This document shows, piece after piece, positions 453-46,396 of a stretch of DNA of 64,000 nt. The position numbers and the translations under genes were made by a program. Position 1 is the stretch's first letter. The number at the start of each line of letters is the position of its first letter. The stretch spans positions 1-64,000 of the forward strand of contig JAUHWY010000016.1 of NCBI GenBank assembly GCA_030427255.1, in the 5' to 3' direction. The notes under the pieces are model-generated. The model saw only the letters and a list, made by a program, of their open reading frames with translations. It made no database searches and was not told where the DNA came from. The DNA comes from Bacteroidia bacterium (GTDB lineage Bacteria > Bacteroidota > Bacteroidia > CAIKAF01).

Positions 453-600
453 GGGGCCCTTTTCCGGCCCTTACTGCAACTCCTCAGCCCCAAGGCAGCC
501 CTTCCGGCAGGCGGTTGTTTTCCGCAAAGCTCCAAAAACCCCCTGCACGGCAGGGCAAGCCTTGGGGCTTCCGGGGTTTCCGTGCGGTCCGGGGGCCGGG
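453..600 (+). repeat. Nested palindromic intergenic element, copy A
   Basis: Lies between two co-directional minus-strand paralogues. The left end reads GGGGCCCTTTTCCGG and the right end CGTGCGGTCCGGGGGCC. Inside, AGCCCCAAGG pairs with CCTTGGGGCT, and a core resembling GCGGTTG-CGCAAAGCT is shared with the copy at 12586-12727 read on the other strand. Belongs to a nine-copy family in this window. Confidence 0.75.
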
Positions 601-601
601 T

Positions 602-1339
602 TCATCGTACACAACGGAAATAGGCACTATTGTAGCCATACTCAGAAACCATATATCCGTCCGATAAACGCATGGCAAGGCTTCGGTTTCCGGAAGTTCC
701 GGAGGCCGTGCGGGTCCAAAGGATGTTGGGAGAGCTGTTCTGACTTATGTTTCCTGCATCGTAACTCAACAGGTACATCAACTCATCCATAGAAGGTAAA
801 AACCAATCGCTGTGCCCACTTTCGGTAAGGTTGGCGCAAGCTCTGGCCGCATTCCCTAAGGTAGTTGAGCTTTGTGATTCATTCGAAAGCATGCTTACGT
901 TGGGCGTACTTCCCCCTCCGCTGCCACTCACCACCGCCTGATCTACATAATCCTTATTCACCGCATCGTTGGGATTCACCGGCGGCGCCAAATTCACAAT
1001 ATTGAAATTGCCCATGTCCAAATCGGTATTGGCAGGATTCGGCAGCATCAGCGCCCAAGTGGGATTTTGCGGCGTTCCGGCATTGTAGTAAAAACCTGCC
1101 GGAGCTAAGCTTTGTCCGGTATTGAACACCATCAAACCCGTGGCCGGGGTGCTTATGGTTTGTCCGTCCGTTGCGTTTTGCAAATTTACCCGCGGCACCA
1201 ATACGCCTTTGTCGGTAGCTTCGGCATCCAGCACTGCTGAGGGATCGGGATTTCCGGGTGTGGAGGAGATTTTAACGCCTTGACCTTGAAGAAGGGGACT
1301 AAAAAAGCCCAAGGCCAGCAACCAAATCGTTTTTTTCAT
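602..1339 (-). CDS. Secreted protein with C-terminal Lcl/DUF1566-like domain
   Basis: 245 aa with a signal peptide (MKKTIWLLALGFFSPLLQGQ). Residues 20-140 form the tail-fibre-like Bacteroidota module shared with the truncated upstream paralogue. Residues 145-245 resemble the DUF1566/Lcl C-terminal domain: an Ala/Cys-rich helix (ARACANL), then DWFLPSMDELMYLL, a central WTRTAS, and a terminal YFRCVR. This domain is a compact C-type-lectin-like fold often found on surface-exposed proteins; its ligand here is unknown. There is no typical T9SS sorting domain. It is preceded by a long non-coding stretch and followed by palindromic element A. Domain call is by motif recognition. Confidence 0.8.
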   Translation of the reverse strand: MKKTIWLLALGFFSPLLQGQGVKISSTPGNPDPSAVLDAEATDKGVLVPRVNLQNATDGQTISTPATGLMVFNTGQSLAPAGFYYNAGTPQNPTWALMLPNPANTDLDMGNFNIVNLAPPVNPNDAVNKDYVDQAVVSGSGGGSTPNVSMLSNESQSSTTLGNAARACANLTESGHSDWFLPSMDELMYLLSYDAGNISQNSSPNILWTRTASGTSGNRSLAMRLSDGYMVSEYGYNSAYFRCVR

Positions 1340-1611
1340 GGGGTATTTTTGACCAAATTACGAAACTCTTTAGGCTAAAGGCGGCTTAAAAACGGCCAAA
1401 TCAAACATCCTTAGGTTAAGCTTTTCTAAACTTTGGGTGGTCTTTTTGATGAGAGAAGGACGCGAATGCGCAAAGGTTTCAGCGCAGTAGGACCAATGCG
1501 TGAAATAGATGGCGCCGTCAAACGCCCCTTTGCGGCTTGGCGACTTTGCGTGAAACCCTTAGCGCGAAATTAGGGCACGCAGAGCCGCGAGATGTTGCGT
1601 CTTTACCTCAT
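1340..1611. other. Non-coding stretch with degenerate CGCAAAG/CTTTGCG motifs
   Basis: No convincing gene. Between about 1455 and 1575 the sequence repeats motifs such as GCGCAAAGG, TTTGCGGC and CTTTGCGTGAAACCC in both orientations, a decayed simple-sequence region that leads into the 7-bp array at 1612. The short reading frames here have no family-like features. Confidence 0.5.
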
Positions 1612-1716
1612 CATTCATCATTCATCATTCATCATTCACCATTCCCCATTCACCATTCACCATTCCCCATTCCCCATTCATCACTCCCCATTCATCATTC
1701 CCCATTCATCATTCCC
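1612..1716 (+). repeat. 7-bp tandem array, CATTCNN x 15
   Basis: Fifteen consecutive 7-base units, mostly CATTCAT, CATTCAC or CATTCCC, with one CACTCCC. The first five positions are almost fixed and only the last two vary. The register is exact over 105 bp. The reading frames through it give Ile-His-His-Ser peptides that have no gene context, so it is treated as a non-coding satellite. Confidence 0.9.
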
Positions 1717-1754
1717 GGGGGAAAAGTGGATCACCAAATTTGTAGCATTTTTCA

Positions 1755-1904
1755 CGGGGCAGGGATGGAGCCGGTAGCCTACCGAAGGGCAGCGCCACAG
1801 GCCTTGGGCAACGGAGGCCTCCGATCCTTCGGGGGACCCCGGATGCCTTAGGCCTGTGTGCACTGCCCAAGGGAGCTAAAGGGGACAGCCCAGTAGCCCC
1901 CCTC
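1755..1904 (-). repeat. Nested palindromic intergenic element, copy F
   Basis: Starts CGGGGCAGGGATGGAG and ends AGCCCCCCTC. Inner arms ACAGGCCTTGGGCA-like on the left and CCTTAGGCCTGTGTGC on the right pair around a core of GGAGGCCTCCGATCC and GGGGGACCCCGG. It shares ends and core with copy G at 41983-42134. Lies just beyond the terminator of the gene at 1988-2848. Confidence 0.75.
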
Positions 1905-1906
1905 AT

Positions 1907-1940
1907 AAAAAAACCCCTATAAAAAAATAGAGGCTTTTTA
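1907..1940 (-). terminator. Bidirectional rho-independent terminator
   Basis: A 13-bp stem (1908-1920 with 1927-1939, two G-T wobbles) encloses a 6-base loop. It has A runs on the left and T runs on the right, so it could work on both strands. It lies about 50 bp downstream of the stop codon of the minus-strand gene at 1988. Confidence 0.75.
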
Positions 1941-1987
1941 GGAATTTTTGAAGAATAGGCTGCCTGTGTCGACAGCCTGAAGGGCTG

Positions 1988-2848: not shown

Positions 2849-2871
2849 ACCACTTGGGTTTAGGTGTGCTG

Positions 2872-2879
2872 CAAAAGTA
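2872..2879 (-). promoter_or_regulatory. Putative -7 box for the binding-protein gene
   Basis: TACTTTTG on the minus strand fits the Bacteroidota TAnnTTTG box and lies 23 bp before the ATG at 2848. No clear TTG was seen at the -33 position, so support is partial. Confidence 0.45.
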
Positions 2880-2952
2880 CATAAATTTAATTTTTTAAAC
2901 GCCTTAATGATTTTACCTGAAATTAAAACGCAAAGCAGCAGATGTAGAAGGT

Positions 2953-2983
2953 TTGCAGGACTGGCATTTTGGTTGTATTTTTG
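2953..2983 (+). promoter_or_regulatory. Promoter TTG-N20-TATTTTTG
   Basis: TTG at 2953-2955 and TATTTTTG at 2976-2983 are 20 bp apart, matching the Bacteroidota sigma-factor consensus. The start codon of the next gene is at 3000, so the leader would be only about 10 nt. Confidence 0.6.
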
Positions 2984-2999
2984 ATGAAAATATCTTTAG

Positions 3000-3746: not shown

Positions 3747-3768
3747 TTTTCAAAATAAACTAGAGGCA

Positions 3769-4055: not shown

Positions 4056-4065
4056 GGGGTTATGC

Positions 4066-8693: not shown

Positions 8694-8900
8694 GGGCGCC
8701 TTAACGGAGTCCGGCTATTACTGGCCTTGGGGTGCATGCTTTCCGGCTAAGTGCTGCATGCAGGATTCCCCGGTGAACTTAAGTTTAGGTTTTTAGAAGT
8801 CTGTTTATTGGCTTTTGGGGGCTTGCTAAAGCGCCGCCGCCAAAAGCCGTGCCGGAAATGCATGCTCCCCTGCGGCCGGTAGCCGCCTCCCTCCTGGCGC
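8694..8900 (+). repeat. Nested palindromic intergenic element, copy E
   Basis: Begins GGGCGCCTTAAC and ends CTCCTGGCGC. TGCATGCTTTCCGGC near 8733 pairs with GCCGGAAATGCATGC near 8850, and a second palindrome GGCTTTTGG / CCAAAAGCC sits inside it. At about 207 bp this is the longest copy of the family, apparently with an extra nested arm. Lies directly 3' of the gene ending at 8688. Confidence 0.7.
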
Positions 8901-9013
8901 TTAAGCTCCGAAAAAGAGAGTTTAATACAAATTACCAATTAGGCTAGGTGGAACCCAATACCATGGCTGGTTGATCCCTCAAATATGGCTAATGCCCCTT
9001 TCTGGGTTTGTAG

Positions 9014-12585: not shown

Positions 12586-12727
12586 GCGCCAGGGGCCGAA
12601 GGAATAGCCCGGAGGCTTTGGCCCCGTGCAGCTTAGCCGAGGATGCGTAGCTTTGCGAAGCAACCGCAGGCTTAGCTGCACGTGGGCTAAAGCCGAGGAC
12701 TAGCACTGAGGACCCGCCCGGGCGCCC
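12586..12727 (-). repeat. Nested palindromic intergenic element, copy H
   Basis: Read on the minus strand it begins GGGCGCCCGGGCGGGTCC and ends CCTGGCGC, as the other copies do. GTGCAGCTTAGCC pairs with GGCTTAGCTGCAC around a core with TAGCTTTGCGAAGC. Lies directly 3' of the terminator of the minus-strand gene at 12768. Confidence 0.75.
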
Positions 12728-17095: not shown

Positions 17096-17243
17096 GGGCC
17101 GCCATTTCCGGCCCTTACTTTTACTCCGCAGGGGAACAAGGCTTCAGCCAAACCCATGCAGGGAGCTTGCATGCGCGCCGCTCCTGCACGGGTGGCTTCA
17201 GACCTTGTTCCCCTTTGCGGGGTAATCGTGCGGTCCGGGGCGG
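17096..17243 (+). repeat. Nested palindromic intergenic element, copy B
   Basis: Begins GGGCCGCCATTTCCGGCCC and ends CGTGCGGTCCGGGGCGG. CCGCAGGGGAACAAGG pairs with CCTTGTTCCCCTTTGCGG, with further pairing inside (GAAGCC / GGCTTC-like arms). Both ends closely match copies A and C. This is the only copy between divergent genes rather than at a gene's 3' end. Confidence 0.8.
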
Positions 17244-17625: not shown

Positions 17626-20600
17626 ATGCAACGTATATTTTTGGTTGCTCTGGCAATGCTTTGCATGCGGGCTGACCTCCTCATGTCTCAAACTACCTTC
17701 GACGAATCGGCCTCTACTTGGGGTGTTTCCAATAATCGGGATAAGGATGGCGGCATTGCTTTCGGCGACTTTGACCGGGATGGAGATGACGATGTGCTGG
17801 TAAATACTTCTTCAAGTAGCTCCTCCAATGGATATACTAGATTGTATCGAAACGATGGAACCCACTTTACGGATGTTACCGATGCCTTAGCAGAAGAGTT
17901 GGAGGATGAAGTTCGAGACCGGCAAGCGCTTTTTGCCGATTTTAACAACGATGGGTATTTAGACATACTAAGGTCTCTTGGTACTTCCGGTTCAGGAAGT
18001 GACCGCCTTCAACTTTTTTTATTCAACAACAACACCGGTGGACCTTACAACAACACCTTTGGCGATGGGTTCGGGGATGATGATCCCATAGGCATTGGTG
18101 AGGGCGGTGGCGTAGACATTTCTGTGGATGACGCCAATTTTGAAGGCGTAAATGCTTTTGACATGGATGGGGACGGCGATTTGGATATCCTTATCGAAAA
18201 CCACTCTTACGGCATTGACATTCTTCGTAATAACCTTATTGATCATATTACAGGAAATAAAACAGTAGTTACTCCCTCCACTCATTTTACGCATATTACC
18301 CCCGGAAGCGGCACTTCCTTAGGGTTGCAACAATCGGGTGGAGGCTTAGAAGGAGACTACAGCGCAGTGGGCGATTTGGACAACGACGGTTGGGTCGACT
18401 TGGTTGCCCGCAAACGCAATGGAAACGATGTTTACTTTTCTACCGGAAACGGCTTTACAGGGGGAATTGACCTCCAAAACGCAGACAACAACGACAAAGG
18501 AGGTATTGGCCTTTACGACTTGGACAACGACGGCGATTTGGATATTGTTTGGACTTCAGACCCCGGGAATTACATTTACAGGAACAATGGCGACCGCACA
18601 TTTACTCTAATGAACAATGCTTTGGGAGGTTCTTTCCAAGGCAATGGCGGCGTAGACGGCGTGGCTGGTGGCGATGTGGACAACGATGGGGACATCGATT
18701 TGTTTTTTACAGACAATAATGGCTCTGTCTTGTTTATCAATAACTTGTTAGGCCCGGGATCAAACGGCGCCTTCTCCTTTACCGACCACAATTTTGTCAA
18801 TTCCGGAACAAATACCCACAATGGGGAGGGGGTGGCCATGGCGGATGTGGACGGAGACGGTGACTTAGACATTTTTGAAATCAAAGATGGTAACAACAGC
18901 TCCAGCCGTAGCGACAGGTTGTGGATCAATCGCTTGTATGACGGAGCAACACCACAGGGGGCTAAGGCTTACCTCACCGTTGATGTTAAAGAAATACGCA
19001 CCCATCGCATGTCCGGCGGTCTAGATCGCCCGGCAAATGGGGCCATGGTGGTACTTAAGGATTGCAATGGAAATATTCTTTCCGGTGTGCGCATGGTGGA
19101 CGGAGGCTCAGGTCATGGAAGTCAAAATAGCCAACGGCTTCATTTTGGTTTGCCTAATGGCCCCAACCATCTATACACGGTAGAAGTTCGGTACCCCAAT
19201 GAGCAAACCTATCCGGGCTTGGTGCAGCCTGTGGTTTCCAAAGCGATAAATCCGGCGCTTGCAGGAACAAACCATTTAGAGGTTCTTCCCCACGAACCCA
19301 ATGTGGCTTGCGAGGGCTACTTAGATAACGATCGCGACGGAATAATTAACCTTACCGATCTTGACGACGATAACGACGGGATCCTAGACGTGGAAGAAGT
19401 GTGTGGAGCAGGTGCCGCTAACTATAGTTGCCTTAGCACCTTGATTTTTGATTCCGGAAATAATGCCGTAAACCCTTCCGGTGACCTTGATGGTGACGGA
19501 GTGCCCAATGCTTTGGATTCCAGAGACCCGAACTTTACAAACACCTGTGCCGATTTGAACTTGGATGGTCGTTGCGATGCTTTAGATGCAAGGTTGGATG
19601 CAGATGGGGACGGCATTCCTAACTTTTTTGACCTCGACACCGATGGCGACGGACTTACTGACCTCTTAGAGGCGGGTGGTTTAGATTCTTTGGGGGCAGG
19701 AACCATAATGGGAAACTTTGTAGACAACAATGGAAACGGTTTGCACGACACCTACGATGCAAATAATGGAGGCTTCAGTTTGGCTTTGACCGATACCGAT
19801 CAAGACAATATCCCCGACTTTTTAGATTTAGACAGCGATAACGATGGCATTGCCGATGTGTTGGAAAGCAATGGAACAGATGCCGATGGAGACGGGCGGG
19901 TAGACGGAACCGCGGATGCTGATAGAGATGGCTTAATTGACGCAGTAGACGCCGACACAAACAACGATGGAATTGTCGACAATGCGGCAGGGGTGCTTTT
20001 GCGCACAGGGCTGGATTCGAACAACGACGGCGCTCCGGATGCTTGGCCCTTTTCCGACAACGATCAGGACTTCCTACCCGCTTTTCGCGACTTAGACAGC
20101 GACAACGACGGTTTGGCTGATTTGGCCGAAGCCGGTGGAGTGGACACCAATGGAGATGGCAGAGTAGATCTTTTTGCAGATGCGGATGAAGACGGATTAG
20201 TGGATACCTACGACTTGGATCAAGGCGGAAATCCATTGCAAAACCCGGATCAGGATGGAGATTTGATTCCGGACAGCAGAGACCTAGACAGCGATAACGA
20301 TGGTTTGGCCGATATTTTGGAAGCCGGCGGAGAGGATTTGAATAATGACGGAATGATCGATGGCCTTTTTGCCGATGCCGACGCAGATGGCTTTTCTGAC
20401 TTGGTTGACGGAGATGCCGACAACGACGGAACCCCAGAAAATACAGCTTCCGTTCTAGTCCTTACACAAAGTGATGTAAATAATGACGGCCGGCCGGAAG
20501 GCTATGTAAGCGGAGATTTTGACCTGGATGGTATGTTGAATAGTGCCGACTTAGACAGCGACAACGATGGAATTCTAGATGCGCGCGAAAATGAATTCGA

Positions 20601-21732: not shown

Positions 21733-21837
21733 GGATTATATAGCTCTAATACCGCCCGTTTTGGATTATTTTCCAAAAAATGGAAATATATTCCAAATGT
21801 AAAACACCGAAGGTTTACTATCGCACAATTGCGGAGA

Positions 21838-21845
21838 TATATTTG
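21838..21845 (+). promoter_or_regulatory. Putative -7 box before the 2118-aa gene
   Basis: TATATTTG at 21838-21845 fits TAnnTTTG, 87 bp before the ATG at 21933. The -33 region has GTTTAC rather than TTG. It suggests the second paralogue has its own promoter in the 200-bp gap after the first. Confidence 0.45.
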
Positions 21846-21932
21846 GGAAACAAGTAAACCAACCCGAAGAGTGAGGATGCGTGCTATCCCAAAAAGATAT
21901 TTCTCGCTCGTCGGCCTAGAACCCAAATAGTT

Positions 21933-24900: not shown

Positions 24901-27900
24901 GCAACGACAATACCGCAGAGAACACCTCTTTGGCCCTTCGTTTAACCGGAGGCGATGGAACTACCGTAGACGGAGCCCCGGATACCTATGTGAATGGCGA
25001 TACCGATGGCGACGGCCAGCAAGACGAACATGACTTAGATTCCGATGGCGATGGAATCCCTGATATTATTGAAGCCGGTGGCATCGATACCGATGGAAAT
25101 GGTACCGTAGATGGTGCATTTGCCGATGGCGATGGCGACGGTTTGCACAGCACCTATGACCCCGACGACGGTGGACATGCCATCGAAAACCGCGACTCCG
25201 ACGGAGACGGGGTGCTTAACTTCAAAGACCTCGATTCGGACAACGACGGCATTACCGACGTAACTGAAGCAGGGGGTACCGATGGCAATCAAGACGGCAT
25301 TCTAGATCCAACAGGCGATGCAGACAACGATGGCCTTGACGATGCCGTTGACCCGGATGCCGATGGAAACGGCTCCCTCGAAAGTCCTAACGCTCCATTG
25401 TTTACCACAGGGGGCGATGGCACAACCGTAGATGGTGCGCCGGAAAGCTACGTTACCATTACCGGCAAACAAAACCCCAATCCCGATGGAGACCTATTTG
25501 CCAATCCTTACGATAAGGACTCCGACGGCGATGGCCTTACCGACCTTGCAGAGGCCGGAGGCGTGGACACCAATGGCGACGGTACTGTAGACGGCGCATT
25601 TTCCGATTCGGACGAGGATGGTCTCCATGATACCTACGACGTGAACGACGGCGGCGACCATTTGATCCCTGTTAATTCTGATGCAGATCTTTTAGTAGAC
25701 TACCTTGACCTAGATTCGGACAACGACGGAATTACTGATGTAGCCGAGTCTGGAGGAACCGATGCCGACGACAATGGCATTCAGGATGGGGCAGCAGATA
25801 CCGACAACGACGGACTACAAGATGCTGTAGACGGTGATGTTGGAAATGATGGCGTGGCAGAGAATACGGCAGCTGCCCTTATTCTTACAGGTACCGATAC
25901 CGACAGCGATGGCATTCCCAACAGCTTGACCCGTGGAGACCTTGATGGCGACAACCGTTTCAATTTCCGAGATCTTGATGCCGACAACGATGGAGTTCAA
26001 GATATACTCGAAGCCGGTGGCGTAGATGCCAACAACGACGGAATTGTAGACGGAGCTTTTGCCGACCCCGACAACGACGGCCTACACACTACCTACGATG
26101 CCAACAATGGGGGTACAGCTATTGATAATACCGATACCGATGGAGACAATATTCCCAACGCCAGGTCTTTGGATAGCGACGGCGACGGTATTCCCGACCT
26201 TATCGAATACGGCGGAATCGATACCGATGGCAATGGACTCATTGATGGAGCCATGGCAGATGGAGATACCGACGGTTGGCACGATCTCTACGACGTAAAC
26301 GATGGAGGTTTTGCTATTCCTCAAACCGACTTTGACGGCGATGGTATTCTTGACGCCCTTGATTTAGATTCCGACAACGACGGCATTCCGGATGTACTTG
26401 AGGCCGGTGGCCTGGATGCTAATGACGATGGTATATTGGACGCTACAGCAGATACCGATAACGATGGCTTAGACGATTCCAAAGACTCCGATATTGGCAA
26501 CGACAATACCGCTGAAAACACCGCTATTGCAGCTCGTCTTACCGGAGGGGATGGAGTCTCCGTAGATGGACGACCCGAAAGCTTTACCCGCGGCGATGGC
26601 GATGGCGACAACCTACGGAGCGAAAACGACCTCGACAGCGATAACGACGGAATTACCGACCTTATTGAGGCGCGCGGAGTAGATACCAATGGAGATGGTA
26701 TTGTGGATGGCCTCTTTTCGGATGGCGATAGCGATGGCTTGCACGACACCTACGATGCCAACGACGGTGGAGACGCAATAAACTTCCCCGATTCCGACAA
26801 CGACGACATACCGAATACACAAGACCTGGACAGCGACAACGATGGATACCCGGATATTCTTGAAGTTGGAGGTACCGATGCAGACAACGACGGCATGGTG
26901 GATGCTGTTGGCGATATCGACAACGACGGCTTAATCGATGCGCTTGACGGCGATGTAGGCAACGATGGTACAACCGAAAATACGGCCGGTGCAAGTGTAA
27001 TTTCAGGTGTGGATGGCGATTTCGATGGTATTCCTGACAATTACATCCGAGGCGACTTCGACTTAGATGGTTTCTTGAACAGCCAAGACTTGGATTCCGA
27101 CAACGACGGCATCTTGGATGTAAGAGAAAACAACTTTGCCGATTCCAATTACGATGGCATTGCAGATGGGGCCCCAACAGGAGGTGCTAAGGCCAATGGT
27201 TGGAGCGATGCCTTTGATGGAAATGCGGGCGGTTCTTTCCCCAATCCCCTAAATAACGACTTAAATACTGCCGGTGCCAATGGCGATGCCAACCTGAATT
27301 ACTTGGATATTGATTCGGACAACGATGGTATCCCTGACATCATTGAAGGACAATCTACCGCCGGTTTTATTGCCCCTGCCGGAGCTGATGCCGATGGTGA
27401 CGGTATTGACGACGCCTTTGACAACAACGACGCTGAGTTTGGCGGAGATCCCAACAATGGCATTGCGCCTGTAAACACCGAAGGACCCGGATCTATTCCC
27501 GATTACATTGACTTTGACTCCGACAACGACGGCATCTACGACGATTTGGAAGGGTGGGATGCCAATGCCAATGGAGTGTTGGATGGCCCTGAGCCTTATT
27601 GGTCCGGCGTGGATTCGGACGGCGACGGTTTAGACGATGTCTATGATGCCATTGTGCGAGGTTCTGACCCGGGAAATAATCCCCTGAATAGCGCTACCCC
27701 CATCGGCTTCCCCGACAACCAAGCTCCGGGCGGTGACCGCGACTGGAGAGATCCGGGCCCAATTACCCCTCTTCCTTTGGTTTGGGGAGCCTTCACCGCA
27801 GAGTGGATGGGACAACAAGGCTTGTTGCAATGGACCACCCTTTCCGAAATAAACACCAGTCACTTCGAAATATGGCACAGTACAGATTTAGAAAACTGGA

Positions 27901-28289
27901 ATTTGTTAGGCGAAACCCAAGCCGCCGGATTCTCCTCTGTAGAGCTTAGTTACCAATTCATGCATGTGAATCCGGACATGAAGATGAACTACTATCGCAT
28001 CCGTCAACTGGATTTGGATGGCGCATGGGAATACTCCGAAATTCGAACCTTGCAGGGAGCCGGTCAAGAGGGCAACCACTGGCAAGTGTATCCTAATCCT
28101 ATACAAAACCAAGCCTTTATTCCCGGATTCAAAGGCGAGTTCATCCTTATGAATTTGAGTGGACAAGTTCTTATGCAAGGCAACGCCCACGACCAAATTC
28201 AGGGACTGGAACAATTACCCGCCGGCATGTATGTGCTACAACTCAACATGGAAGGCATTCAGCAGCACATTCGCTTGCTGAAAAACTGA
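21933..28289 (+). CDS. Giant VCBS/ASPIC/TSP3-repeat T9SS type A protein, enlarged paralogue
   Basis: 2118 aa. Same order of domains as its upstream neighbour: signal peptide (to about residue 23), VCBS/FG-GAP propeller (to about 440), ASPIC/UnbV (LKDCSGNIIGPLQSVDGGSG), thrombospondin type 3 calcium repeats (about 550-1920), the LQWTTLSEINTSHFEIWHS beta-sandwich and a type A sorting domain (VYPNPIQNQAFIPG, AGMYVLQL). The extra 750 residues lie wholly in the calcium-repeat region. About six super-units end in an ENTAAALVLTG-like stretch, and units 2 and 5 share a segment with GWHDxYD that others lack, separated by about 1.6 kb, which points to a block duplication. The reverse strand carries long chance frames. 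Confidence 0.9.
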   Translation: MQRYSMRWLYALMFICLATSSFGQTTNQFSESAASWNVDIGGNKDGGVAFGDYDDDGDPDIFLNTNNGTGDSRVYRNDGTSYTDVTTTVANGLLSQTMERQAVWADFNNDGRKDFARSLGSSGGSDKIQIWLSNPGPTFGDGAGGTTPITVRASGGIINIGANNIEGLGAIDFDGDGDLDIMIENHNYGIDLLRNNRINHTTGALVAVTPATHFTIITTGCGDPCYGLDQSATDGDYSAVGDMDNDGWVDIVARKHDGDDVYYNTGTSFGFATNLDDAANGDKGGIGLYDLDNDGDLDIVWTSAPGNRIYRNNGDRTWTDMTTAFDASFRTNTAVDGVTGGDIDNDGDIDLFFTDNGSSFMFINQLNDPVAGPNTGSTFDFNNYSFVASGTNNGDGEGCAMADVDGDGDLDIYVNINGSANKLWINNLYNGATPFANKNYIEVDISEIRPNLMTGGNNRPYIGATAVLKDCSGNIIGPLQSVDGGSGHGSQNEATLHFGLPNGNNALYFVEIAFPNELTYSTPSTRRLIVSKAINPTIAGTAQMEVLPHEPDISCDNYFDNDGDGVYNPDDLDDDNDGIPDYIEICGPSATDFSCLAGILTDGVNPLDPSGDEDGDGIPNYIDARDPGVVHAACVDANLDGYCDAINPALDADQDSIPDFFDLDTDNDGVADIIEAGGVDTDGDGRVDGAFADGDNDGLHNTYDTDNGGDDIAFLDSDGDGIYNFEDLDSDNDGIPDVIEMGGTDANDDGRQDETADSDRDGLDDAIDGDVGNDGTAENTAAALVLTGTDTDADGRPNSITRGDVDGDGYPSFIDLDSDNDGKQDIIEAGGVDANDDGVVDGAFSDPDGDGLHTTYDANDGGTSIDNTDSDNDGIPDALSLDSDGDGIPDIIEMDGIDTDGNGMVDGAYTDTDTDGWHDFYDPNNGGFAISDPDTDGDGIRDVIDLDTDNDGIPDVIEVGGTDANDDGRLDATADTDNDGLDDSVDSDIGNDNTAENTSLALRLTGGDGTTVDGAPDTYVNGDTDGDGQQDEHDLDSDGDGIPDIIEAGGIDTDGNGTVDGAFADGDGDGLHSTYDPDDGGHAIENRDSDGDGVLNFKDLDSDNDGITDVTEAGGTDGNQDGILDPTGDADNDGLDDAVDPDADGNGSLESPNAPLFTTGGDGTTVDGAPESYVTITGKQNPNPDGDLFANPYDKDSDGDGLTDLAEAGGVDTNGDGTVDGAFSDSDEDGLHDTYDVNDGGDHLIPVNSDADLLVDYLDLDSDNDGITDVAESGGTDADDNGIQDGAADTDNDGLQDAVDGDVGNDGVAENTAAALILTGTDTDSDGIPNSLTRGDLDGDNRFNFRDLDADNDGVQDILEAGGVDANNDGIVDGAFADPDNDGLHTTYDANNGGTAIDNTDTDGDNIPNARSLDSDGDGIPDLIEYGGIDTDGNGLIDGAMADGDTDGWHDLYDVNDGGFAIPQTDFDGDGILDALDLDSDNDGIPDVLEAGGLDANDDGILDATADTDNDGLDDSKDSDIGNDNTAENTAIAARLTGGDGVSVDGRPESFTRGDGDGDNLRSENDLDSDNDGITDLIEARGVDTNGDGIVDGLFSDGDSDGLHDTYDANDGGDAINFPDSDNDDIPNTQDLDSDNDGYPDILEVGGTDADNDGMVDAVGDIDNDGLIDALDGDVGNDGTTENTAGASVISGVDGDFDGIPDNYIRGDFDLDGFLNSQDLDSDNDGILDVRENNFADSNYDGIADGAPTGGAKANGWSDAFDGNAGGSFPNPLNNDLNTAGANGDANLNYLDIDSDNDGIPDIIEGQSTAGFIAPAGADADGDGIDDAFDNNDAEFGGDPNNGIAPVNTEGPGSIPDYIDFDSDNDGIYDDLEGWDANANGVLDGPEPYWSGVDSDGDGLDDVYDAIVRGSDPGNNPLNSATPIGFPDNQAPGGDRDWRDPGPITPLPLVWGAFTAEWMGQQGLLQWTTLSEINTSHFEIWHSTDLENWNLLGETQAAGFSSVELSYQFMHVNPDMKMNYYRIRQLDLDGAWEYSEIRTLQGAGQEGNHWQVYPNPIQNQAFIPGFKGEFILMNLSGQVLMQGNAHDQIQGLEQLPAGMYVLQLNMEGIQQHIRLLKN

Positions 28290-28356: not shown

Positions 28357-28502
28357 GGGCGCCTTATCCGTCTCCGTTTCCAAGTCCTCCGCTTTGGCCC
28401 AAGGCAGGCTAAGCGGTACGGGGTCCCAAAAGAATTTGGGCCTCCGCCCGCCAAGCCTGCCTAGAACCAAAGCGTCCGGGCTTTACAACTCCGCCGGGGC
28501 GC
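28357..28502 (+). repeat. Nested palindromic intergenic element, copy D
   Basis: Begins GGGCGCCTTATCCG and ends CTCCGCCGGGGCGC. CGCTTTGG pairs with CCAAAGCG; GGCAGGCT pairs with AGCCTGCC; the core has GCGGTACGGGGTCCC and GGGCCTCCGCCCGCC, matching the copy at 41983-42134 on the other strand. Lies just past the terminator of the 2118-aa gene. Confidence 0.8.
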
Positions 28503-28661
28503 TTGTTTCTTCCAATGGGAATGGTTTAATTAAGAGAAAAGTTTTCTCTTTGATTTGCATACCCTTAAGTAGCATTTTTGTATAAAATTTGGGGTCAAGG
28601 AGCCGTTTTTATTAGAAAGTACTACTTTTACGACCTGTTTTATTCATCTCAAACCATCCAC

Positions 28662-30173
28662 ATGCAAAAAAACGTATGCTTGTTGGCCCTTGCTTTGTTC
28701 CTGTTTAGCGTGGGAAGAAGTCAATCCAAAGAGGTCTCTATTGTTCCCTTTACAAAAGGAGTAGGAAAATTCGATGACTATATTGGACATAATGGCCAAT
28801 ATGCGTTTTGGGATTATGGAGGAGGAAGTAGTACCAAAGCCCAAATACGGCAAGTTAATGTCGAAACAGGACAAGAAGAACGGGTCTTTGCTATAAAACT
28901 CCCCAAAAAGCCTAAGGGCATACGTTCAATGACCTTTGCAGGTTTATATCCTTTTCTTATTAAAGAGCAGTCGCTTTTTGCCTTCATAACCGCTTCGGAT
29001 GCTAAGTACAGCTTTTATGAGGTGTTTGTGCAGGCCTATGACTTGGAAGGGAACTTAGATGGCCCATTGGTTTCGCTATTTAAGATTACCGGGGATTTCA
29101 TTGGTTTGTCGGTAAATTGGAAGTATATTTTCTCACCGGATGGGTCCAAGGTCGCGGTAAGGTTTTCGCCCAAAAGCTCCCTATATACGAAGTACACTGC
29201 ACATGGGTATGGAGTAATTCTAGACTTAGTCAAACGAAAAGCAGTAAGCACCAGGTTGTGGATTGCAAGTGAAGAAGATTATTTTCCTTGGCCGCAGGAG
29301 TTTTTGGTTGACAATGATGGAGGGCGCTACTTCCTTAGATTTTCTAGGGACAAGGAGCATTTCGCTAAAACTCAAGAGTCGATTTGGGCCTTTAATCTGC
29401 TCTACATAAGTCCGGGGGCCCCAATCTCTCAAGCCCAAACCTATACGGTAGACTTCGGTAATAAGCACATCATTTCTTCGAGGGTTCAATGGGATGGAGA
29501 GCATATTCTCTTTTCCGGCTGCTTTGAAGATAGGCCCGGCCAAGGGGCACAGGGAATCTACATGCATAAAGTTCACAAAGACTCTATTTCTTTTCATGGA
29601 GTTCAAACCCTAAGGTTCCCGGACTCTTTACAAACGATGCTTGGGCTCAATAGCAATCCACACTTAAATAAAACAGTTTTTGACTCCAGCAATCATCAGG
29701 ACAGGGTTGTTGTTAAGCACATTTCGAGAATGCCTAATGAGGGGTACTTTGTTATAGCCCAGCGAGTGATTAGCTATGAGGTTACCCGGAAGGATCATTT
29801 AGGGACATATCCGGAGGCTAGAACTCAGTTGGGTGATTTAATTCTAATGCGAATTAGCCCTGAAGGAAAGTTCGTCTCTTTAGATATTCAAGATGTAGGA
29901 GGCGATGGTTACTCCATTAATAGAATCTATGTGTCTCATAAACCAAATGGGGTCACTGGAATACTTGCCCAGAGAAAAGCCATGGATAGTTATTTGTCAT
30001 TGGTATGGCTAGGGCGTTATGCTCCGGGAGAAGCCCCGGAGTTCCTTTCCCCAGTTTCATTTCCCGTTCGAGGTAAATCGTTCGTAATCGAAGATAACCC
30101 ATTGATTATTAATGATGAAATGTACTTTCCTTATTCAGGATACAATCAAGGTTGGGCAAAATACGTGTATTAA
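28662..30173 (+). CDS. Secreted protein of unknown function, family member 1 of 3
   Basis: 503 aa from the ATG at 28662, which opens a signal peptide (MQKNVCLLALALFLFSVGRSQ); the frame extends upstream without one. The mature part is rich in short beta strands (YAFWDYGGGSS, FYEVFVQAYDLEGNLDG, YIFSPDGSKVAVRF, EHILFSGCFEDRPGQGAQGIYMHKV) with spacing like a beta-propeller. It has no sorting domain and no membrane helix. The gene at 30229 is a clear paralogue (shared KGxGxxDxYIGxNxQ, FSPDGxKV and GxFxxxPGxGAxGxYxxxxHKD patterns). No known enzyme motif is visible. A TACTTTTA box lies 31 bp upstream of the ATG. Confidence 0.8.
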   Translation: MQKNVCLLALALFLFSVGRSQSKEVSIVPFTKGVGKFDDYIGHNGQYAFWDYGGGSSTKAQIRQVNVETGQEERVFAIKLPKKPKGIRSMTFAGLYPFLIKEQSLFAFITASDAKYSFYEVFVQAYDLEGNLDGPLVSLFKITGDFIGLSVNWKYIFSPDGSKVAVRFSPKSSLYTKYTAHGYGVILDLVKRKAVSTRLWIASEEDYFPWPQEFLVDNDGGRYFLRFSRDKEHFAKTQESIWAFNLLYISPGAPISQAQTYTVDFGNKHIISSRVQWDGEHILFSGCFEDRPGQGAQGIYMHKVHKDSISFHGVQTLRFPDSLQTMLGLNSNPHLNKTVFDSSNHQDRVVVKHISRMPNEGYFVIAQRVISYEVTRKDHLGTYPEARTQLGDLILMRISPEGKFVSLDIQDVGGDGYSINRIYVSHKPNGVTGILAQRKAMDSYLSLVWLGRYAPGEAPEFLSPVSFPVRGKSFVIEDNPLIINDEMYFPYSGYNQGWAKYVY

Positions 30174-30228
30174 CAGGTGCATTTTCTCATACCATACATT
30201 AGAACAATTTTTTAACAACGCAAACCCT

Positions 30229-31830
30229 ATGAGAGTGCTCTTTAGTAAACCAGTAGGAAACTTCGGTTTCGGAATACCAAGGCTTTTTTTCTTCTTCTTA
30301 TTTCTGTCGTCCTTTTTTATTGTCAATGGACAAAGTGAGTCCGTTAGCCTAAAGTTGTTGAATCCTGACCTTGGAAAAGGAGACGGCTATATTGGCCAAA
30401 ACAGCCAAGGCTTTTATTGGGAACATCAGAAAAAGTACATGTATAAAATTGATATTCTTAGGGTGGATCCGCAAACCGGGAAAAAGACCGACCGAATTGT
30501 TTTAAAGAACCCTAAAAAGCCGGATGGATTTAAGTATTTTGATTATGCTCAGGGATATCAATACCTTGTGACCGAACAAAACATTTTAGCGTTTTTTTAC
30601 GGGTCAAACACTAGGGGGAATTCGCGTTATATCTATCTCCAAGCCTTTGATTTTAGCGGAAAAACGGTAGGTGATTTAGTGCCTATCTATAAGTATAGTT
30701 CTGCCGATGGGGGCCATGGCATATATAATAGGAAGTATTTCTCCCCCGATGGAACAAAAGTTGGCATCTTCTTGTATTCCGCTTCCGATTTCTACAATGA
30801 AGAGGATGATGTGAACTTTTGGATAGTTTTTGACTTGGAGGAAATGAAGGTGTTGAGCACAACAAGGTTGGCAGAAGAGAATGAAACCTATTTTAACATA
30901 CCGGACAATTTTCTGGTGGAGAATAATGGCGATAGCTATTATATCTCATCCACCCGAGACGATCAAAAGTTTGTCCAAGAAGGCATTCAGTATTGGACCA
31001 TTGCTTTGCAACACGTCAAAGCCGGCTCAAAATCCGAAAACATTACCTCTTTTCCCATAGAAGTTGGGATAAAGCACACGACTTATGCTCGCTTGGAAAG
31101 AGACGGAGAACATTTCCTATTGACCGGAACTTATACCGACAATCCCGGAGAAGGGGCTACCGGACTGTTTTGGCAACGCATGCATAAGGACACGCTGTCT
31201 TTAAGAGGCGCCAAGGAAATTCCCTTTTCTGCAGAAATACAAGAGCAATATGCTGCCGATAAGAATACCTTGTGGAAAGATAAAGTGCTAAAGCCCGCCC
31301 ATTTATCAGATAGGGTGGAGATTCCCCACATTTCTGTTATGCCAAACGGCAACTACTTTTTGATTGCCCAGCGGGCAACAATGTTTGAAAAGTTATTTAA
31401 GGATTTGGACAAGGGGGGTAAAATATTTTCGTCTCCACGGATTCAAGATGGGGATATTGTGTTGCTGAGGATAAGTCCCAAGGGTGACTTGATTTCTATG
31501 GACCTTCATATCAAAACTTCCCAAGGGAATAGTGGCGGAAGTGTTTTGGTGGTGCATGGTACGGATGGATCTACGGCTCTTTTTTCTAACCTTTACAGCA
31601 CCGTTAGCAATGGTTATACCACACTAACGAACAACATGGTGGAAGTATGCCAATACAAAGCCGGTGAATCCCCGGTCTTTAACATTCAAAGTAAATACAA
31701 CGATCTTGGATTGGGCTCCAATTTAATTCATTGGAATGGGGAAGTGTATTTCGAGTACAGTAGTTTCACCACCGGCCTTACCGGGGAACGGTTGTATAAC
31801 TATGGATTGGGGAAGTTTGAATTTAAGTAA
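30229..31830 (+). CDS. Secreted protein of unknown function, family member 2 of 3
   Basis: 533 aa from the ATG at 30229, which precedes a signal peptide (LFFFFLFLSSFFIVNGQ); the frame stays open upstream inside the end of the previous gene. The mature protein matches the previous gene along its length (GKGDGYIGQNSQGFYWEHQ, YKIDILRVDPQTGKK, YFSPDGTKVGIFLY, HFLLTGTYTDNPGEGATGLFWQRMHKDT, ISVMPNGNYFLIAQR, DIVLLRISPKGDLISMD). Predicted to be beta-rich, possibly a propeller. It starts 55 bp after the stop of member 1, so the two are probably co-transcribed. Function unknown. Confidence 0.8.
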   Translation: MRVLFSKPVGNFGFGIPRLFFFFLFLSSFFIVNGQSESVSLKLLNPDLGKGDGYIGQNSQGFYWEHQKKYMYKIDILRVDPQTGKKTDRIVLKNPKKPDGFKYFDYAQGYQYLVTEQNILAFFYGSNTRGNSRYIYLQAFDFSGKTVGDLVPIYKYSSADGGHGIYNRKYFSPDGTKVGIFLYSASDFYNEEDDVNFWIVFDLEEMKVLSTTRLAEENETYFNIPDNFLVENNGDSYYISSTRDDQKFVQEGIQYWTIALQHVKAGSKSENITSFPIEVGIKHTTYARLERDGEHFLLTGTYTDNPGEGATGLFWQRMHKDTLSLRGAKEIPFSAEIQEQYAADKNTLWKDKVLKPAHLSDRVEIPHISVMPNGNYFLIAQRATMFEKLFKDLDKGGKIFSSPRIQDGDIVLLRISPKGDLISMDLHIKTSQGNSGGSVLVVHGTDGSTALFSNLYSTVSNGYTTLTNNMVEVCQYKAGESPVFNIQSKYNDLGLGSNLIHWNGEVYFEYSSFTTGLTGERLYNYGLGKFEFK

Positions 31831-32028
31831 GGCTTAAGCCTTGCGTAGTTTGGCAAAGTATTGGTCTTAAAAAGTCATTCGGGAAGATGCTTTATTTTTT
31901 TTAGTCCCCAAACATTGCAGCGCAAAAGTTTGAACTGGTAAATGTGTTTTGTTCCATTAGGGACTCTTTTAAGCAGTTGGAAATAAGGGTTTTGGTATGC
32001 GTTTCCCTTGTCGGCGTTACAATAGCAC

Positions 32029-32059
32029 TTGGAATATACTTACAAAGTTGTTAGTTTAG
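32029..32059 (+). promoter_or_regulatory. Promoter TTG-N20-TAGTTTAG
   Basis: TTG at 32029-32031 and TAGTTTAG at 32052-32059 with a 20-bp spacer; one mismatch to TAnnTTTG. It would start RNA about 40 nt before the ATG at 32104. The rest of the gap 31831-32028 shows no gene. Confidence 0.5.
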
Positions 32060-32103
32060 CTCCTCAATTTTAAACATTATTAACTCAATCATCCGTATTT
32101 CTT

Positions 32104-33771
32104 ATGATTCGATGGATTAGGACTGGAATTGCACTTCGTGCAAATTTCCTCGGATTGCTCTTGTTTGCTTCTGCACTTTTGTGGCATACAGGTTTAAGCC
32201 TAAACGCACAGGGCCCAAAGTATAAGGTGGAAATGGGCACTAGGGTGAAGTACAAGAAAAAGCACGGTCAATATCCGGCCGCTATTATTGGAGCTAATGC
32301 TTCGGGCGTTTATATGATGCGCGCCAAGTATACCATTATTCCATTGCCCTACTACACCATTGTAATTAAAAAAGATATCCTGGCCAAGTTGGATCGGAAT
32401 AGCTACGAAGTGATTTGGAGCAAAGAGGTCTTCGATAAAAAGTACAGCTCAAAAGGGAAAGTACTATGGTATCTTGGACCTTATTTGATAAAGGGCAAGT
32501 TGCATGCCTTCCCAATGGTCTACGAAAAGAAGAATAAGAGGGTGTATTTGTACCACCAAGAGTTTGATGATTTTGGCGAGTATGTGGGCAAGCCGCAATT
32601 GCTGCATAAGGAAACTGTGAAATCCAAAAAGAAAGCCCCGGATTTTTCCCTTCGGTTTTCTCAAGATAGTTCTAAGGTCTGTTTAAAGGTGGAGCCGGAT
32701 AAGGGTAAAAAAAGTAAAGGCTCGTATTCTTTTGTTGTTTACGACCTGGGAAAAAGTGAGATGGTCGAAACCTATGAACCCCGATTTAAAGCAAATCTGG
32801 AGGATATTCAACTGGAAGACTATGAAGTAGGCAACGACGGAAGCCTAATGATTGCCCATGGAGAAAGGGACAAGGGCGCCAAAAAGCGCAAGGTGGACGA
32901 TACCTGGGAGTTCTTTCTTAGCTATTATACCCCGGAAGGCAGGGATCGTCCTGTGGCAGAAACTGCTGTTGAGATTTCCGGCAAATATATTTCCGGTTTA
33001 ACCTTAGCCCAGTCCGGAGACCTGATTGCTTGTTCCGGTTTTTACAGCGACAAAAGCTCTTCGAGCGTAACCGGAGCATTTCATCAATTGTTTGATGTTA
33101 AGGAAAAGGCGTTTATTTCTCAGAATAACCAAGACCTTGAGGCAAAAATCATTCGCGAGTTTGATACCACCAAAAAGAAGCGGAAGACCAAAGGGAAAAA
33201 GGCCGAAGAAAACGGAGTGGAAAACATTCAAGTGCGCGAAGTTTTGCTCACCCAAGATGGAAATACCATTTTGATTGGAGAGAAGTTTAGTTGGGAAGTC
33301 CATTGCGTAACCACCCAAAGCGGTAGACGTTGTTATAATGTATATAATTATGGTGACTTGCTTGTAACTACGATTTCTCCGGAAGGTGAGATTTTACAAA
33401 CCCGTCGTGTGGTTAAATTAAAAACGACCAATGCTCCCCTTGGAAAAGGGTACAACAGCGTCTTGCATGCCGATGGAACCCTTTCTTTGTTTTTTGATGC
33501 CGATAAAAAAGACCTAAACAAAACTTCCTCAGGCAAAGCCACTTCAGGAGGAAAAATAAAACATATGACGCTTAAGCTTCTGAATATTTTGCCCGATGGC
33601 GAGATGACTACCCAGTCGGTTATTGACTACAGCCAGCATAAAAAGATTTTTGTTTGGATGGTGAGAAGTTTGGATTCCGAGACCATCGTTTTCCTGTATG
33701 GAAGAACGGGTCTATTTGCCGGTAGGAAACAAGGCATGGGGATGCTGCACTTACAAAAGGGAAGAAGTTAG
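32104..33771 (+). CDS. Secreted protein of unknown function, family member 3 of 3
   Basis: 555 aa. Signal peptide with a long N-region (cleavage near residue 36, LNAQ). The body has the same strand pattern as the two genes before it (YHQEFDDFGEYVGKPQLL, LRFSQDSSKVCLKVEPD, YEVGNDGSLMIAHGE, GDLIACSGFYSDKSSSSVTGAFHQLFD, GDLLVTTISPEGEILQTRRVVKL), but it is more divergent and lysine-rich. A low-complexity basic linker (KKKRKTKGKKAEENG) sits near residue 360. No sorting domain or catalytic motif is visible. It has its own likely promoter. Function unknown. Confidence 0.75.
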   Translation: MIRWIRTGIALRANFLGLLLFASALLWHTGLSLNAQGPKYKVEMGTRVKYKKKHGQYPAAIIGANASGVYMMRAKYTIIPLPYYTIVIKKDILAKLDRNSYEVIWSKEVFDKKYSSKGKVLWYLGPYLIKGKLHAFPMVYEKKNKRVYLYHQEFDDFGEYVGKPQLLHKETVKSKKKAPDFSLRFSQDSSKVCLKVEPDKGKKSKGSYSFVVYDLGKSEMVETYEPRFKANLEDIQLEDYEVGNDGSLMIAHGERDKGAKKRKVDDTWEFFLSYYTPEGRDRPVAETAVEISGKYISGLTLAQSGDLIACSGFYSDKSSSSVTGAFHQLFDVKEKAFISQNNQDLEAKIIREFDTTKKKRKTKGKKAEENGVENIQVREVLLTQDGNTILIGEKFSWEVHCVTTQSGRRCYNVYNYGDLLVTTISPEGEILQTRRVVKLKTTNAPLGKGYNSVLHADGTLSLFFDADKKDLNKTSSGKATSGGKIKHMTLKLLNILPDGEMTTQSVIDYSQHKKIFVWMVRSLDSETIVFLYGRTGLFAGRKQGMGMLHLQKGRS

Positions 33772-34340: not shown

Positions 34341-34479
34341 GGAGCCTCCCGGCCCTAAGTGAGGACCCTCCGAAGCCCATGCGCGTCTATTGGGGAGCCG
34401 GACATGGCTTGCCTAAGCAAGACCCTGTGCGGCCACCCAATAGGCGCATGGGCAAGGAAGGCCGAACCCGGTGGCCGGA
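34341..34479. repeat. Nested palindromic intergenic element, copy I
   Basis: Between two convergent genes. GCCCATGCGCGTCTATTGGG pairs with CCCAATAGGCGCATGGGC around a core TGGCTTGCCTAAGCAAG. The end GTGAGGACCCTCC resembles copy H (CTGAGGACCCGCC). The outer ends (GGAGCCTCCCGG and GGTGGCCGG) are more diverged than in other copies. Confidence 0.65.
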
Positions 34480-41982: not shown

Positions 41983-42134
41983 CGGGGCAGGGATAGAGGC
42001 GGTAGCCCGGAATCCAAAATAATGCAGGCTGTTGGCAGGCGGAGGCCCCTGAGCATTCAGGGGACCCCGTACTGCTTACAGCCTGCTTATTTTGGACGAG
42101 GACTAAAGCCGAAAGCCCGGTTTAGCCCCCCTCC
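41983..42134 (-). repeat. Nested palindromic intergenic element, copy G
   Basis: Between convergent genes, starting 4 bp after the nqrF stop. Ends CGGGGCAGGGATAGAGGCGG and AGCCCCCCTC match copy F. Arms AATCCAAAATAATGCAGGCTG and its partner CAGCCTGCTTATTTTGG pair, and the core GGCCCCTGAGCATTCAGGGG is itself a hairpin. It may double as the terminator for both flanking genes. Confidence 0.8.
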
Positions 42135-43648: not shown

Positions 43649-43662
43649 GGATGCAATGTTAG

Positions 43663-44703: not shown

Positions 44704-45626
44704 GCCTTCGAGTTTTGGGTGGAACTTCGCCACAACCAAAGCGCTCCCGGCAAGGCCGGTAGTGCCAAATTAATGGCCCACAGCCACAATGAAGCTTGGA
44801 GGCCATAATCGGCACCCAACAAGTATACCGATAGTGATCCACGGGTAAAAATTTCGGCAAAAGCCTGACTTGGGATAACGGTATTCCAAAAGAACACCAA
44901 GCTGAGCTTTGGTAGCGTGGCCCAAAGTTCCGTTTGCGGCGCAAAGGCCCAAACGCATGCCAAAAACTGTGCTGTAAATACCAGGTAGCGCAATAGGGAA
45001 AATCCCAAAGCCAGAGCCATGTGCTTGGGGCGTATTCTAAGGCTTGCCTTTACCAGCCTTTTGGCCAATTTGAGCTTAGACTGACGGAGCAAATAGCGCA
45101 GCCATACCGGCGCCAACCAGAGCGCCAAAAGCACCGGTAGCCCAAACCAAAGCACAATCCACCAAGCAAAAGGCGCGGTAAGCGCAAACGATGTGCTGGT
45201 TTGGTAGGCCAAAGCCAATCCGCCAACAAATAGGGTAGTTCCCAGTTGGGCAAAGCTACCCATGACCGATGCCATACCTGCCGACCAGCGGTAACGAGGC
45301 GGTAGACCCCAAACCCTGCCGGCAAACTCGCCAATGCGGTTGGGAGTAAATACCGACAAACTAACCCCACTCAGCAAAGGACCAATAAAGCGTGAAAAAG
45401 GAAGCGGAACTGCCGCGCCGCAAAGCATGCGCCATTTTACCAATTCCAACCACCAATTTAAGGGGCACAGCAAAAAGGCCGGTACAAGCCAAAGCGGAGA
45501 CAGGGGCCGTACGTCGCCCAAGGGACGCGTGCTTAGCATATAGACCAAATAAGCCACCGAAACCAAGGCCAAAATCCATTTGAGCCATGGCGTCCATCGG
45601 GAAAGCGTATCTTTGAAGGTCTTCAT
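44700..45626 (-). CDS. Lysylphosphatidylglycerol-synthase-type flippase-domain membrane protein
   Basis: 308 aa with about eight membrane helices. Matches the LPG synthase transmembrane (UPF0104) family: WWLELVKWRML, SGVSLSVFTPNRIGEFAGRV (the conserved TPxxxGE loop) and FWNTVIPSQAFAEIFTRGSLSV. Only the membrane half is present; the lysyl-transferase domain of MprF is missing, so lipid flipping or a glycolipid role is more likely than lipid lysylation. Its stop overlaps the start of the glycosyltransferase by 4 bp. Divergent from ruvC with 19 bp between start codons. Confidence 0.8.
   Translation of the reverse strand: MKTFKDTLSRWTPWLKWILALVSVAYLVYMLSTRPLGDVRPLSPLWLVPAFLLCPLNWWLELVKWRMLCGAAVPLPFSRFIGPLLSGVSLSVFTPNRIGEFAGRVWGLPPRYRWSAGMASVMGSFAQLGTTLFVGGLALAYQTSTSFALTAPFAWWIVLWFGLPVLLALWLAPVWLRYLLRQSKLKLAKRLVKASLRIRPKHMALALGFSLLRYLVFTAQFLACVWAFAPQTELWATLPKLSLVFFWNTVIPSQAFAEIFTRGSLSVYLLGADYGLQASLWLWAINLALPALPGALWLWRSSTQNSKA
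45608..45615 (+). promoter_or_regulatory. Putative -7 box for ruvC inside the divergent gene
   Basis: TATCTTTG fits TAnnTTTG and lies 30 bp before the ruvC ATG. It overlaps the first codons of the divergent gene. The nearest TTG is 25 bp upstream, longer than usual. Confidence 0.4.
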
Positions 45627-45645
45627 TCGACGCCTAAATTAGCCA

Positions 45646-46248
45646 ATGCCCACAGACGAAGCATACAATATCCTGGGAATTGATCCGGGAACCACCGCCT
45701 TAGGCTTTGCCATACTGCAGGTTAAGGGAAAAAAAATTGTGCACGTACACGATGTAGGTCACCTCACTTTAGACCCTAAACGCAGCCATTTTGAACGTTT
45801 GGGCGACATTCATCAATTTGTGTTGAACCAACTCTTTCAGCACAGGCCCAAGGAGTTGGCCATAGAAGCACCGTTTTTTGGCAAAAACGTCCAGAGCATG
45901 CTCAAGCTGGGGCGTGCCCAAGGCGTTGTTATTGCCACCGCCATGAGCCAAGGCATGTCTGTTGCAGAATATGCTCCCCGCGAAATCAAACAAGCCCTCA
46001 CCGGCCGAGGCAACAGCAGCAAAGAGCAAGTGGCAGCCATGGCCCGTAGCATATGCGGCCCCCTTCCTGAAGCACTCAGCGCCGACGCCACCGATGCCCT
46101 CGGCGTGGCCATTTGCCACTTTTTCAGGCTCGGCAACGCCACCCAACGCCCCAACGCAAATGCAAGTCTTCGACAAATGGGCGGTTCAGCAAAAGGAAAG
46201 AACCAATGGTCCGATTTCCTCAAAGCCAACCCGGACCGTTTAAAATGA
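45646..46248 (+). CDS. ruvC: Holliday junction resolvase RuvC
   Basis: 200 aa. The RNase H-like catalytic set is complete: Asp13 (GIDPGTTALG), Glu74 (LAIEAPFFGKN), Asp147 and Asp150 (SADATDALGVAICH). The dimer-interface helix VQSMLKLGRAQGVVI and EYAPREIKQALTGRGNSSKEQV are typical. It cuts four-way junctions late in recombination. A C-terminal tail of about 35 residues (NATQRPNANASLRQMGG) goes beyond the core fold. Palindromic element C starts at the base after its stop codon. Confidence 0.95.
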   Translation: MPTDEAYNILGIDPGTTALGFAILQVKGKKIVHVHDVGHLTLDPKRSHFERLGDIHQFVLNQLFQHRPKELAIEAPFFGKNVQSMLKLGRAQGVVIATAMSQGMSVAEYAPREIKQALTGRGNSSKEQVAAMARSICGPLPEALSADATDALGVAICHFFRLGNATQRPNANASLRQMGGSAKGKNQWSDFLKANPDRLK

Positions 46249-46396
46249 GGGGCGCCATTTCCGGCCCTCCCTCCAAGTCCTCAAATCCAAAGCACGCAGC
46301 GCTAGGCGGTGCGGGGGCTTCCACAAAGTTTCAGCCTCCACCCGCCAAGCGCTGCGGCTTTCCATTTTCCGGGCTTTCCGTGCCGGTCCGGGGCGC
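46249..46396 (+). repeat. Nested palindromic intergenic element, copy C
   Basis: Starts directly after the ruvC stop. Begins GGGGCGCCATTTCCGGCCC and ends GTGCCGGTCCGGGGCGC, matching copies A and B. CGCAGCGCTAGGCGG pairs with CCGCCAAGCGCTGCG around a core with GGGGGCTTCC and CAGCCTCCACC. Confidence 0.8.

Follow-up and report, generated by a model that had tools for sequence, protein, structure and literature searches.

A family of long covarying hairpins dispersed through a Bacteroidia genome, related to the Flavo-1 motif

The first 64,000 nucleotides of contig JAUHWY010000016.1 (forward strand), from the assembly GCA_030427255.1 of an uncultured Bacteroidia bacterium, contain nine copies of an intergenic palindromic element; this whole stretch is referred to below as the window. 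We found that the element is one long imperfect hairpin of ~145 nt, in which fixed internal-loop boxes alternate with variable stems that covary. Sequence comparisons further show that it is a diverged and hitherto undescribed long-hairpin lineage related to, though not a formal member of, the Flavo-1 motif (Rfam RF01705). As the best explanation of these features, held at slightly short of an even chance, we propose that this lineage is a strand-specific hairpin DNA site, kept by selection, with a putative hairpin-binding protein as its partner.

A single long hairpin is predicted at all nine intervals, at about -80 to -107 kcal/mol, with lengths of 139-152 nt except for one copy of 207 nt. 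R2, a covariance model of the long hairpin element that was run on the window with filters off, scores seven of the nine at 52.7-151.9 bits and finds no tenth copy within the 64 kb. The strand fitting R2 is here termed the model strand, and copies occur in the window in both orientations. Thus, the nine-copy family of the preliminary description of this DNA is real, though that list did not separate the two strands. On the model strand the consensus starts with GCGCC-CCGGC-GGA-GTT-GGA-AAG-CC-CGGA and runs through two variable stems into CTTGGCGGGCGGAGGC, a variable apical hairpin and GACCCCGTACCGCTTAG, after which the returning variable stems lead to GAGGACTTGGAAACGGAGACGGATAAGGCGCC-CAAA. The stem is broken at regular points by fixed features, namely a pair of GGA/GGA 3x3 loops, one GGA/GA loop, a T.T mismatch and a bulged A, while the stems between these boxes differ among copies yet pair. 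In 16 copies from this genome (G000) 91.8% of cells form standard pairs, both sides have changed in 34 of 51 pairs, and covariation is 0.514; shuffling gives 0.151 +/- 0.014, with 0 of 500 shuffles reaching the observed value, and sliding the partners gives 0.167 at most. Larger sets came from contig 1 of the sister genome G004 (150 matches; 89.2% paired, double changes in 51 of 51 pairs, covariation 0.663 versus 0.155 shuffled) and from Flavobacterium (36 distinct sequences; 89.5% paired, 43 of 51, 0.478 versus 0.130 shuffled). Being fitted to the model, both of these alignments are biased towards it; however, slid controls reach at most 0.130, indicating that the covariation signal is independent of the fitting. 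Accordingly, the earlier proposal that the stems vary in sequence while staying self-complementary holds far beyond chance.

The two strands are not equivalent in this fold. Paired columns of the G004 copies, read on the model strand, contain 201 G.T versus 81 A.C mismatches and 514 purine-purine versus 70 pyrimidine-pyrimidine mismatches, and under DNA parameters the model strand is the more stable one in 132 of the 145 copies. A cruciform by itself would not tell the strands apart. The model strand is clearly adapted for folding, and this asymmetry, not being expected from a cruciform alone, points to one folded strand, either RNA or single-stranded DNA, as the functional form.

The genomes G000 and G004 are ~88% identical and represent two species of the genus. 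Between them, 29 orthologous copies show a mean identity of 94.9%, as compared to 87.9% for coding windows (p = 1.6e-12) and 84.9% for alignable intergenic windows (p = 6e-11), which implies that individual loci are under constraint. This per-locus conservation, stems included, is the strongest sign of function.

Numbering the window copies from 1 to 9 by position, the one closest to the consensus is copy 6 (28357..28502, minus strand; 151.9 bits with R2). It is followed in score by copy 9 (46249..46396, minus; 128.9 bits; G004 orthologue ~91% identical), the first base of which directly follows a stop codon, copy 8 between convergent genes (41983..42134, plus; 112.9 bits; orthologue 98% identical), copy 4 (12586..12727, plus; 97.2 bits; 97%), copy 1 (453..600, minus; 80.4 bits; 97%), copy 2 (1755..1904, plus; 78.5 bits) and copy 5 (17096..17243, minus; 52.7 bits). 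Copy 7 (34341..34479) is an atypical subtype left without a strand, with 23.3 bits on plus and 17.9 on minus and an orthologue that is 99% identical. The 207-nt copy 3 (8694..8900, minus) has extra apical sequence and is recognized by its fold; it was not listed by R2 in the window, but its G004 orthologue, 94% identical, scores 48.5 bits. Synteny with G004 starts 9 nt beyond the 5' edge of copy 2, stops exactly at 17243 in copy 5, and stops 10 nt beyond the 5' edge of copy 3, at CTCCG (the CGGAG box), and 13 nt beyond that of copy 6, at a TTGGAAG box.

Such boxes recur outside the hairpins: of 145 copies on contig 1 of G004, 73 have a GGAG/GGAA box ahead of the hairpin, at a distance of 5-16 nt, against a background of ~12%. 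In the window, it is represented by TTGGAAGA of copy 6 (28503..28515, minus) and CGGAGCTTAA of copy 3 (8901..8910, minus), with the break in synteny falling at the outer edge of the latter. Dispersed copies in G004 are 82-94% identical to one another, and their shared homology repeatedly stops 3-6 nt past GGCGCC on one side, the 3' end of the unit being GGCGCC-CAAA, and, on the other, 11-12 nt (or 0-3 nt) short of the hairpin. These fixed end points of the shared homology show that the element spread in the past as units of ~160 bp. The preliminary description had offered a conserved fold or a mobile palindrome; both halves of this alternative apply, given the strong covariation on the one hand and the sharp outer boundaries shared by copies within a genome on the other. 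No clean empty site was found between G000 and G004, and both have an element at almost every site that could be tested, so that movement is old or slow. One further copy just beyond the window (C38:68199-68350) is absent from G004, but lies within a 382-bp indel in repetitive DNA. Turnover is seen at greater distance, with the genome G001 lacking the element at the gene end orthologous to the site of copy 8. In low-copy relatives, the open reading frames beside elements are ordinary chromosomal genes only, and no autonomous partner gene was found among them.

This 3.2 Mb genome has at least 145 full-length copies among the 150 candidates scored. G004 has 153 matches in 1.57 Mb, ~145 of them full-length, and other contigs of the genome under study have 67 in 762 kb. 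The resulting density of one per 11-12 kb extrapolates to ~270 copies per genome; the previously noted value of about one per 7 kb is somewhat above this wider figure. The copies are almost entirely intergenic, with 15 of 145 overlapping crude gene calls. All five other genomes of the genus are positive (49-76 matches among 77 scored), and other genera of the same family range from 0 to 77 matches among 77 scored. Among 198 genomes of the phylum searched with strict filters, matches were confined to this genome and to four from another genus. Named matches comprise Flavobacteriales bacterium M30B58 (the same assembly as G004), a Schleiferiaceae metagenome-assembled genome and ~23 Flavobacterium loci, while phage and plasmid collections yielded no match. 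Thus, the family extends to relatives and to Flavobacterium, and is patchy elsewhere.

Flavo-1 is a computed RNA motif without assigned function that was proposed as a likely RNA (Weinberg et al. 2010, PMC2864571). The Rfam model has 76 positions and a curated gathering cut-off of 42 bits. The long copies of Flavobacterium match it at 42.9, 41.1, 40.0 and 38.5 bits, the first of these, from Flavobacterium lacus, being above the cut-off; the strand is the same and the ends nearly coincide. These copies span the entire Flavo-1 model, with their added length sitting at its apex, and Flavobacterium genomes harbor 2-25 long copies alongside 19-137 Flavo-1 matches (150 candidates scored). Within the window's own family, matches of 138-157 nt in the genomes G008 and G012 reach 52.9-65.6 bits with Flavo-1, R2-positive copies in G009 and G014 span the whole Flavo-1 model at 33.7 and 32.3 bits, and a long copy at the locus L079 could be aligned to the Flavo-1 foot. 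The window itself gives no Flavo-1 match up to E = 10, and the best Flavo-1 score in its genome, 33.9 bits at short loci, is under the cut-off. The shared features are high copy number in Bacteroidota genomes, the same strand and boundaries, and a foot of 3-, 2-, 2- and 4-bp helices parted by GNA-type 3x3 purine loops; these same foot helices covary in the copies of the present genome too. In contrast, the hairpin of 140-150 nt in place of ~76 nt with one short apical hairpin, the extra variable stems with fixed mismatches and the apical GGAGGC/GACCCC box set the window copies apart. It is their sub-threshold Flavo-1 scores together with a length of ~145 nt against a 76-position model that lead us to regard them as a new long-hairpin variant, and the Flavobacterium and same-family intermediates that tie them to Flavo-1. 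The preliminary description had placed the element in no named family, which remains correct as to formal membership but misses this kinship with RF01705.

Whether the folded strand acts as DNA or RNA can be approached through its placement. At its 5' end the model strand faces the stop of the neighboring gene in 72 cases and the start in 73, whereas on the 3' side stops are favored by 88 to 57; hence, where any preference exists, the model strand is antisense to the neighboring gene. Convergent intergenic sites outnumber divergent ones (42 versus 24; p = 0.047), a T-rich stretch follows the hairpin in only 3 of 145 copies on the model strand and 15 of 145 on the other, and orientation relative to the replichores shows no bias or lagging-strand preference. 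In the transcriptome of F. psychrophilum, Flavo-1 matches are indistinctly sense or antisense to transcripts, and many are in none (PMC9723704). The mixed placement, the lack of a T-tract and of replichore bias and this transcriptome together favor a DNA-level site with moderate confidence, and do not favor the assumption of RNA in the preliminary description.

The DNA-site explanation that we prefer builds on several established features: the model strand is adapted to form a rod of ~145 nt with fixed purine-rich internal loops, the stem sequence is free to vary among copies so long as pairing holds, dispersal as ~160 bp units took place in the past, and each copy is now conserved in place above coding DNA. 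In this explanation, the working form would be the folded DNA strand, exposed on duplex opening and recognized by a putative hairpin-binding protein, and its role may be a chromosomal one at gene ends, comparable to that of repetitive extragenic palindromes (REPs) and bacterial interspersed mosaic elements (BIMEs) though of different descent. Several points weigh against this explanation. A high G+C content, or repair templated by the hairpin, could keep divergence low even where selection is absent; the binding protein remains putative; and the preference for DNA over RNA is drawn from placement and one statement in the literature. Furthermore, the stop preference at the 3' end of the element is significant over the whole set (p = 0.012) and sharp within 28 nt (41 stops versus 5 starts), so that stop-codon proximity leaves room for a role of the complementary strand at mRNA 3' ends, while the Flavobacterium sample shows no clear polarity.

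A tentative extension, possible but harder to sustain, is that the whole Flavo-1 family could be a strand-specific DNA hairpin site, not RNA, maintained at hundreds of copies per genome by host-level selection and bound by a putative dedicated Bacteroidota hairpin-binding protein, possibly acting at the 5' foot, where rearrangement breakpoints fall. In the literature Flavo-1 is described as being among the most abundant small RNA (sRNA) families, and no function or demonstrated transcript was found there. Our results extend the motif to an undescribed long form, add evidence on constraint and strand, and sharpen the question into one of RNA versus DNA, and of the binding partner. If it is DNA, "sRNA genes" annotated by the hundreds in Flavobacterium and its relatives are misnamed, and the Bacteroidota possess a chromosome-wide structural element that is REP/BIME-like in role and separate in origin.

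Rfam classes Flavo-1 as Gene; sRNA, and in keeping with this the model strand might be transcribed as a structured RNA, acting in trans or within mRNA ends. The covariation and the conservation of purine-rich loops are what RNA typically shows, the strand asymmetry suits RNA equally with single-stranded DNA, the constraint at each locus agrees with it, and Weinberg et al. (PMC2864571) took the motif for one. We nevertheless consider this somewhat unlikely, in view of the hundreds of loci in each genome, which lie in sense and antisense alike, the lack of promoter-like conservation beyond the GGAG/GGAA box, and the inconsistent transcription of Flavo-1 in F. psychrophilum (PMC9723704).

Were the element a recombination site that works as a folded single strand, with exchange taking place at the hairpin's 5' foot, it would recall the attC sites of integrons, which are likewise long imperfect hairpins with one folding strand, fixed unpaired features and variable stems, often just past a stop codon. 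Six breaks in synteny between G000 and G004 do fall 0-19 nt outside element 5' edges, while the two at 3' edges are insertions of miniature inverted-repeat transposable elements (MITEs); in addition, one subfamily adjoins decayed ends of a tyrosine recombinase, the distance being within ~60-200 bp for 5 of 8 fragments. However, unalignable flanks (identity <=0.66) are only mildly commoner on the 5' side (11 versus 6 of 29 pairs), and we record the 5' breaks as a lead, not a result. R boxes (GTTRRRY/RYYYAAC) are absent at the ends (0-1% and 3-5% versus ~2% background), cassette-like spacing or arrays are lacking, no associated intact integrase was found, and the copies linked to recombinase ends resemble a single unit that was duplicated, all of which makes such a site improbable.

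The inverted element pairs, whose 5' ends point inward at a spacing of 38-163 bp, the dispersed units with fixed ends, and the hundreds of intergenic copies often near gene 3' ends are reminiscent of REPs, BIMEs and paired REPs (REPINs) moved by the TnpA-REP/RAYT (Y1 HUH) transposase. A link of this kind had been suggested earlier, and two of the three Y1_Tnp genes of this genome do have an element 185-370 bp downstream. Yet, Y1_Tnp was not found in the element-rich genomes G001, G005 and G014 (68, 73 and 77 of 77 scored matches), the surroundings (1.5 kb) of 30 Flavobacterium Y1_Tnp loci are free of long elements, and the 15 such loci scanned have no Flavo-1 match at gathering level. Moreover, GTAG/CGTC tags are depleted at both ends (0-1% versus 4-6% background), the element at ~145 nt is about five times the usual REP length of 20-40 nt, and it shows no visible relation to replication direction. 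Given the element-rich genomes free of Y1_Tnp and the Flavobacterium Y1 genes without an adjoining element, we rejected a RAYT origin as having very little chance of being correct. An intrinsic terminator or terminator pair is least credible of all, as the placement at gene 3' ends and the slight excess of convergent sites are offset by the scarcity of T-rich stretches and by a size and fixed internal loops unlike those of terminators.

Separately, the Y1 transposase gene at the locus L227 (G004 C1:1472101) has an adjoining CCCACGGTTTCAACCGTGGG hairpin, which makes a stronger candidate for a genuine RAYT-associated REP of this lineage. Decayed 3' ends of a tyrosine recombinase gene are found on contig 1 of G004 at 308194-308315, 550043-550308, 573720-573970, 1463435-1463790 and 1526626-1526952; next to such an end comes a CCCACGG/CCGTGGG hairpin, and after it the element, in what is apparently a duplicated composite unit. 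A tyrosine recombinase was rejected as the mover because these relics flank one subfamily only. A MITE family of ~170-290 bp with ends GAGACYGTTGATGC occurs at L394-L401 (G000 C53:51553, 117199-117471 and 160393-160564) and at G004 C1:684000, with two G000 insertions being clean relative to G004 and lying 12-22 nt from element 3' edges. A second MITE-like unit, with ends GGGATAGGGAATGCG, is inserted in G004 inside the element orthologous to that of the L055 locus (C1:809940-810256).

The window has several further features. A repeated Lcl_C-domain gene region at 1-1485 is duplicated in the window and has a larger array in G004 (C1:693000-700200), and a 14-bp tandem repeat of the CATTCACCATTCCC type (1598-1728) adjoins copy 2. 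Two giant adjoining genes with FG-GAP repeats (17626-28289; 1368 and 2118 aa) contain long runs of DxDxDG-type repeats with 39/195-nt periods, in a region rearranged relative to G004. Starting at the 5' box of copy 6 is a strain-variable 5.3-kb segment with three large open reading frames without a Pfam match (28578-33771), of which G004 keeps only a C-terminal remnant of a related gene. Finally, the transfer-messenger RNA gene (58738-59106) is followed downstream by clustered tandem repeats of 113 bp and CTCCTCCCTGTTGCT-type repeats of 19 bp (59109-60740), a cluster that is partly missing in G004.

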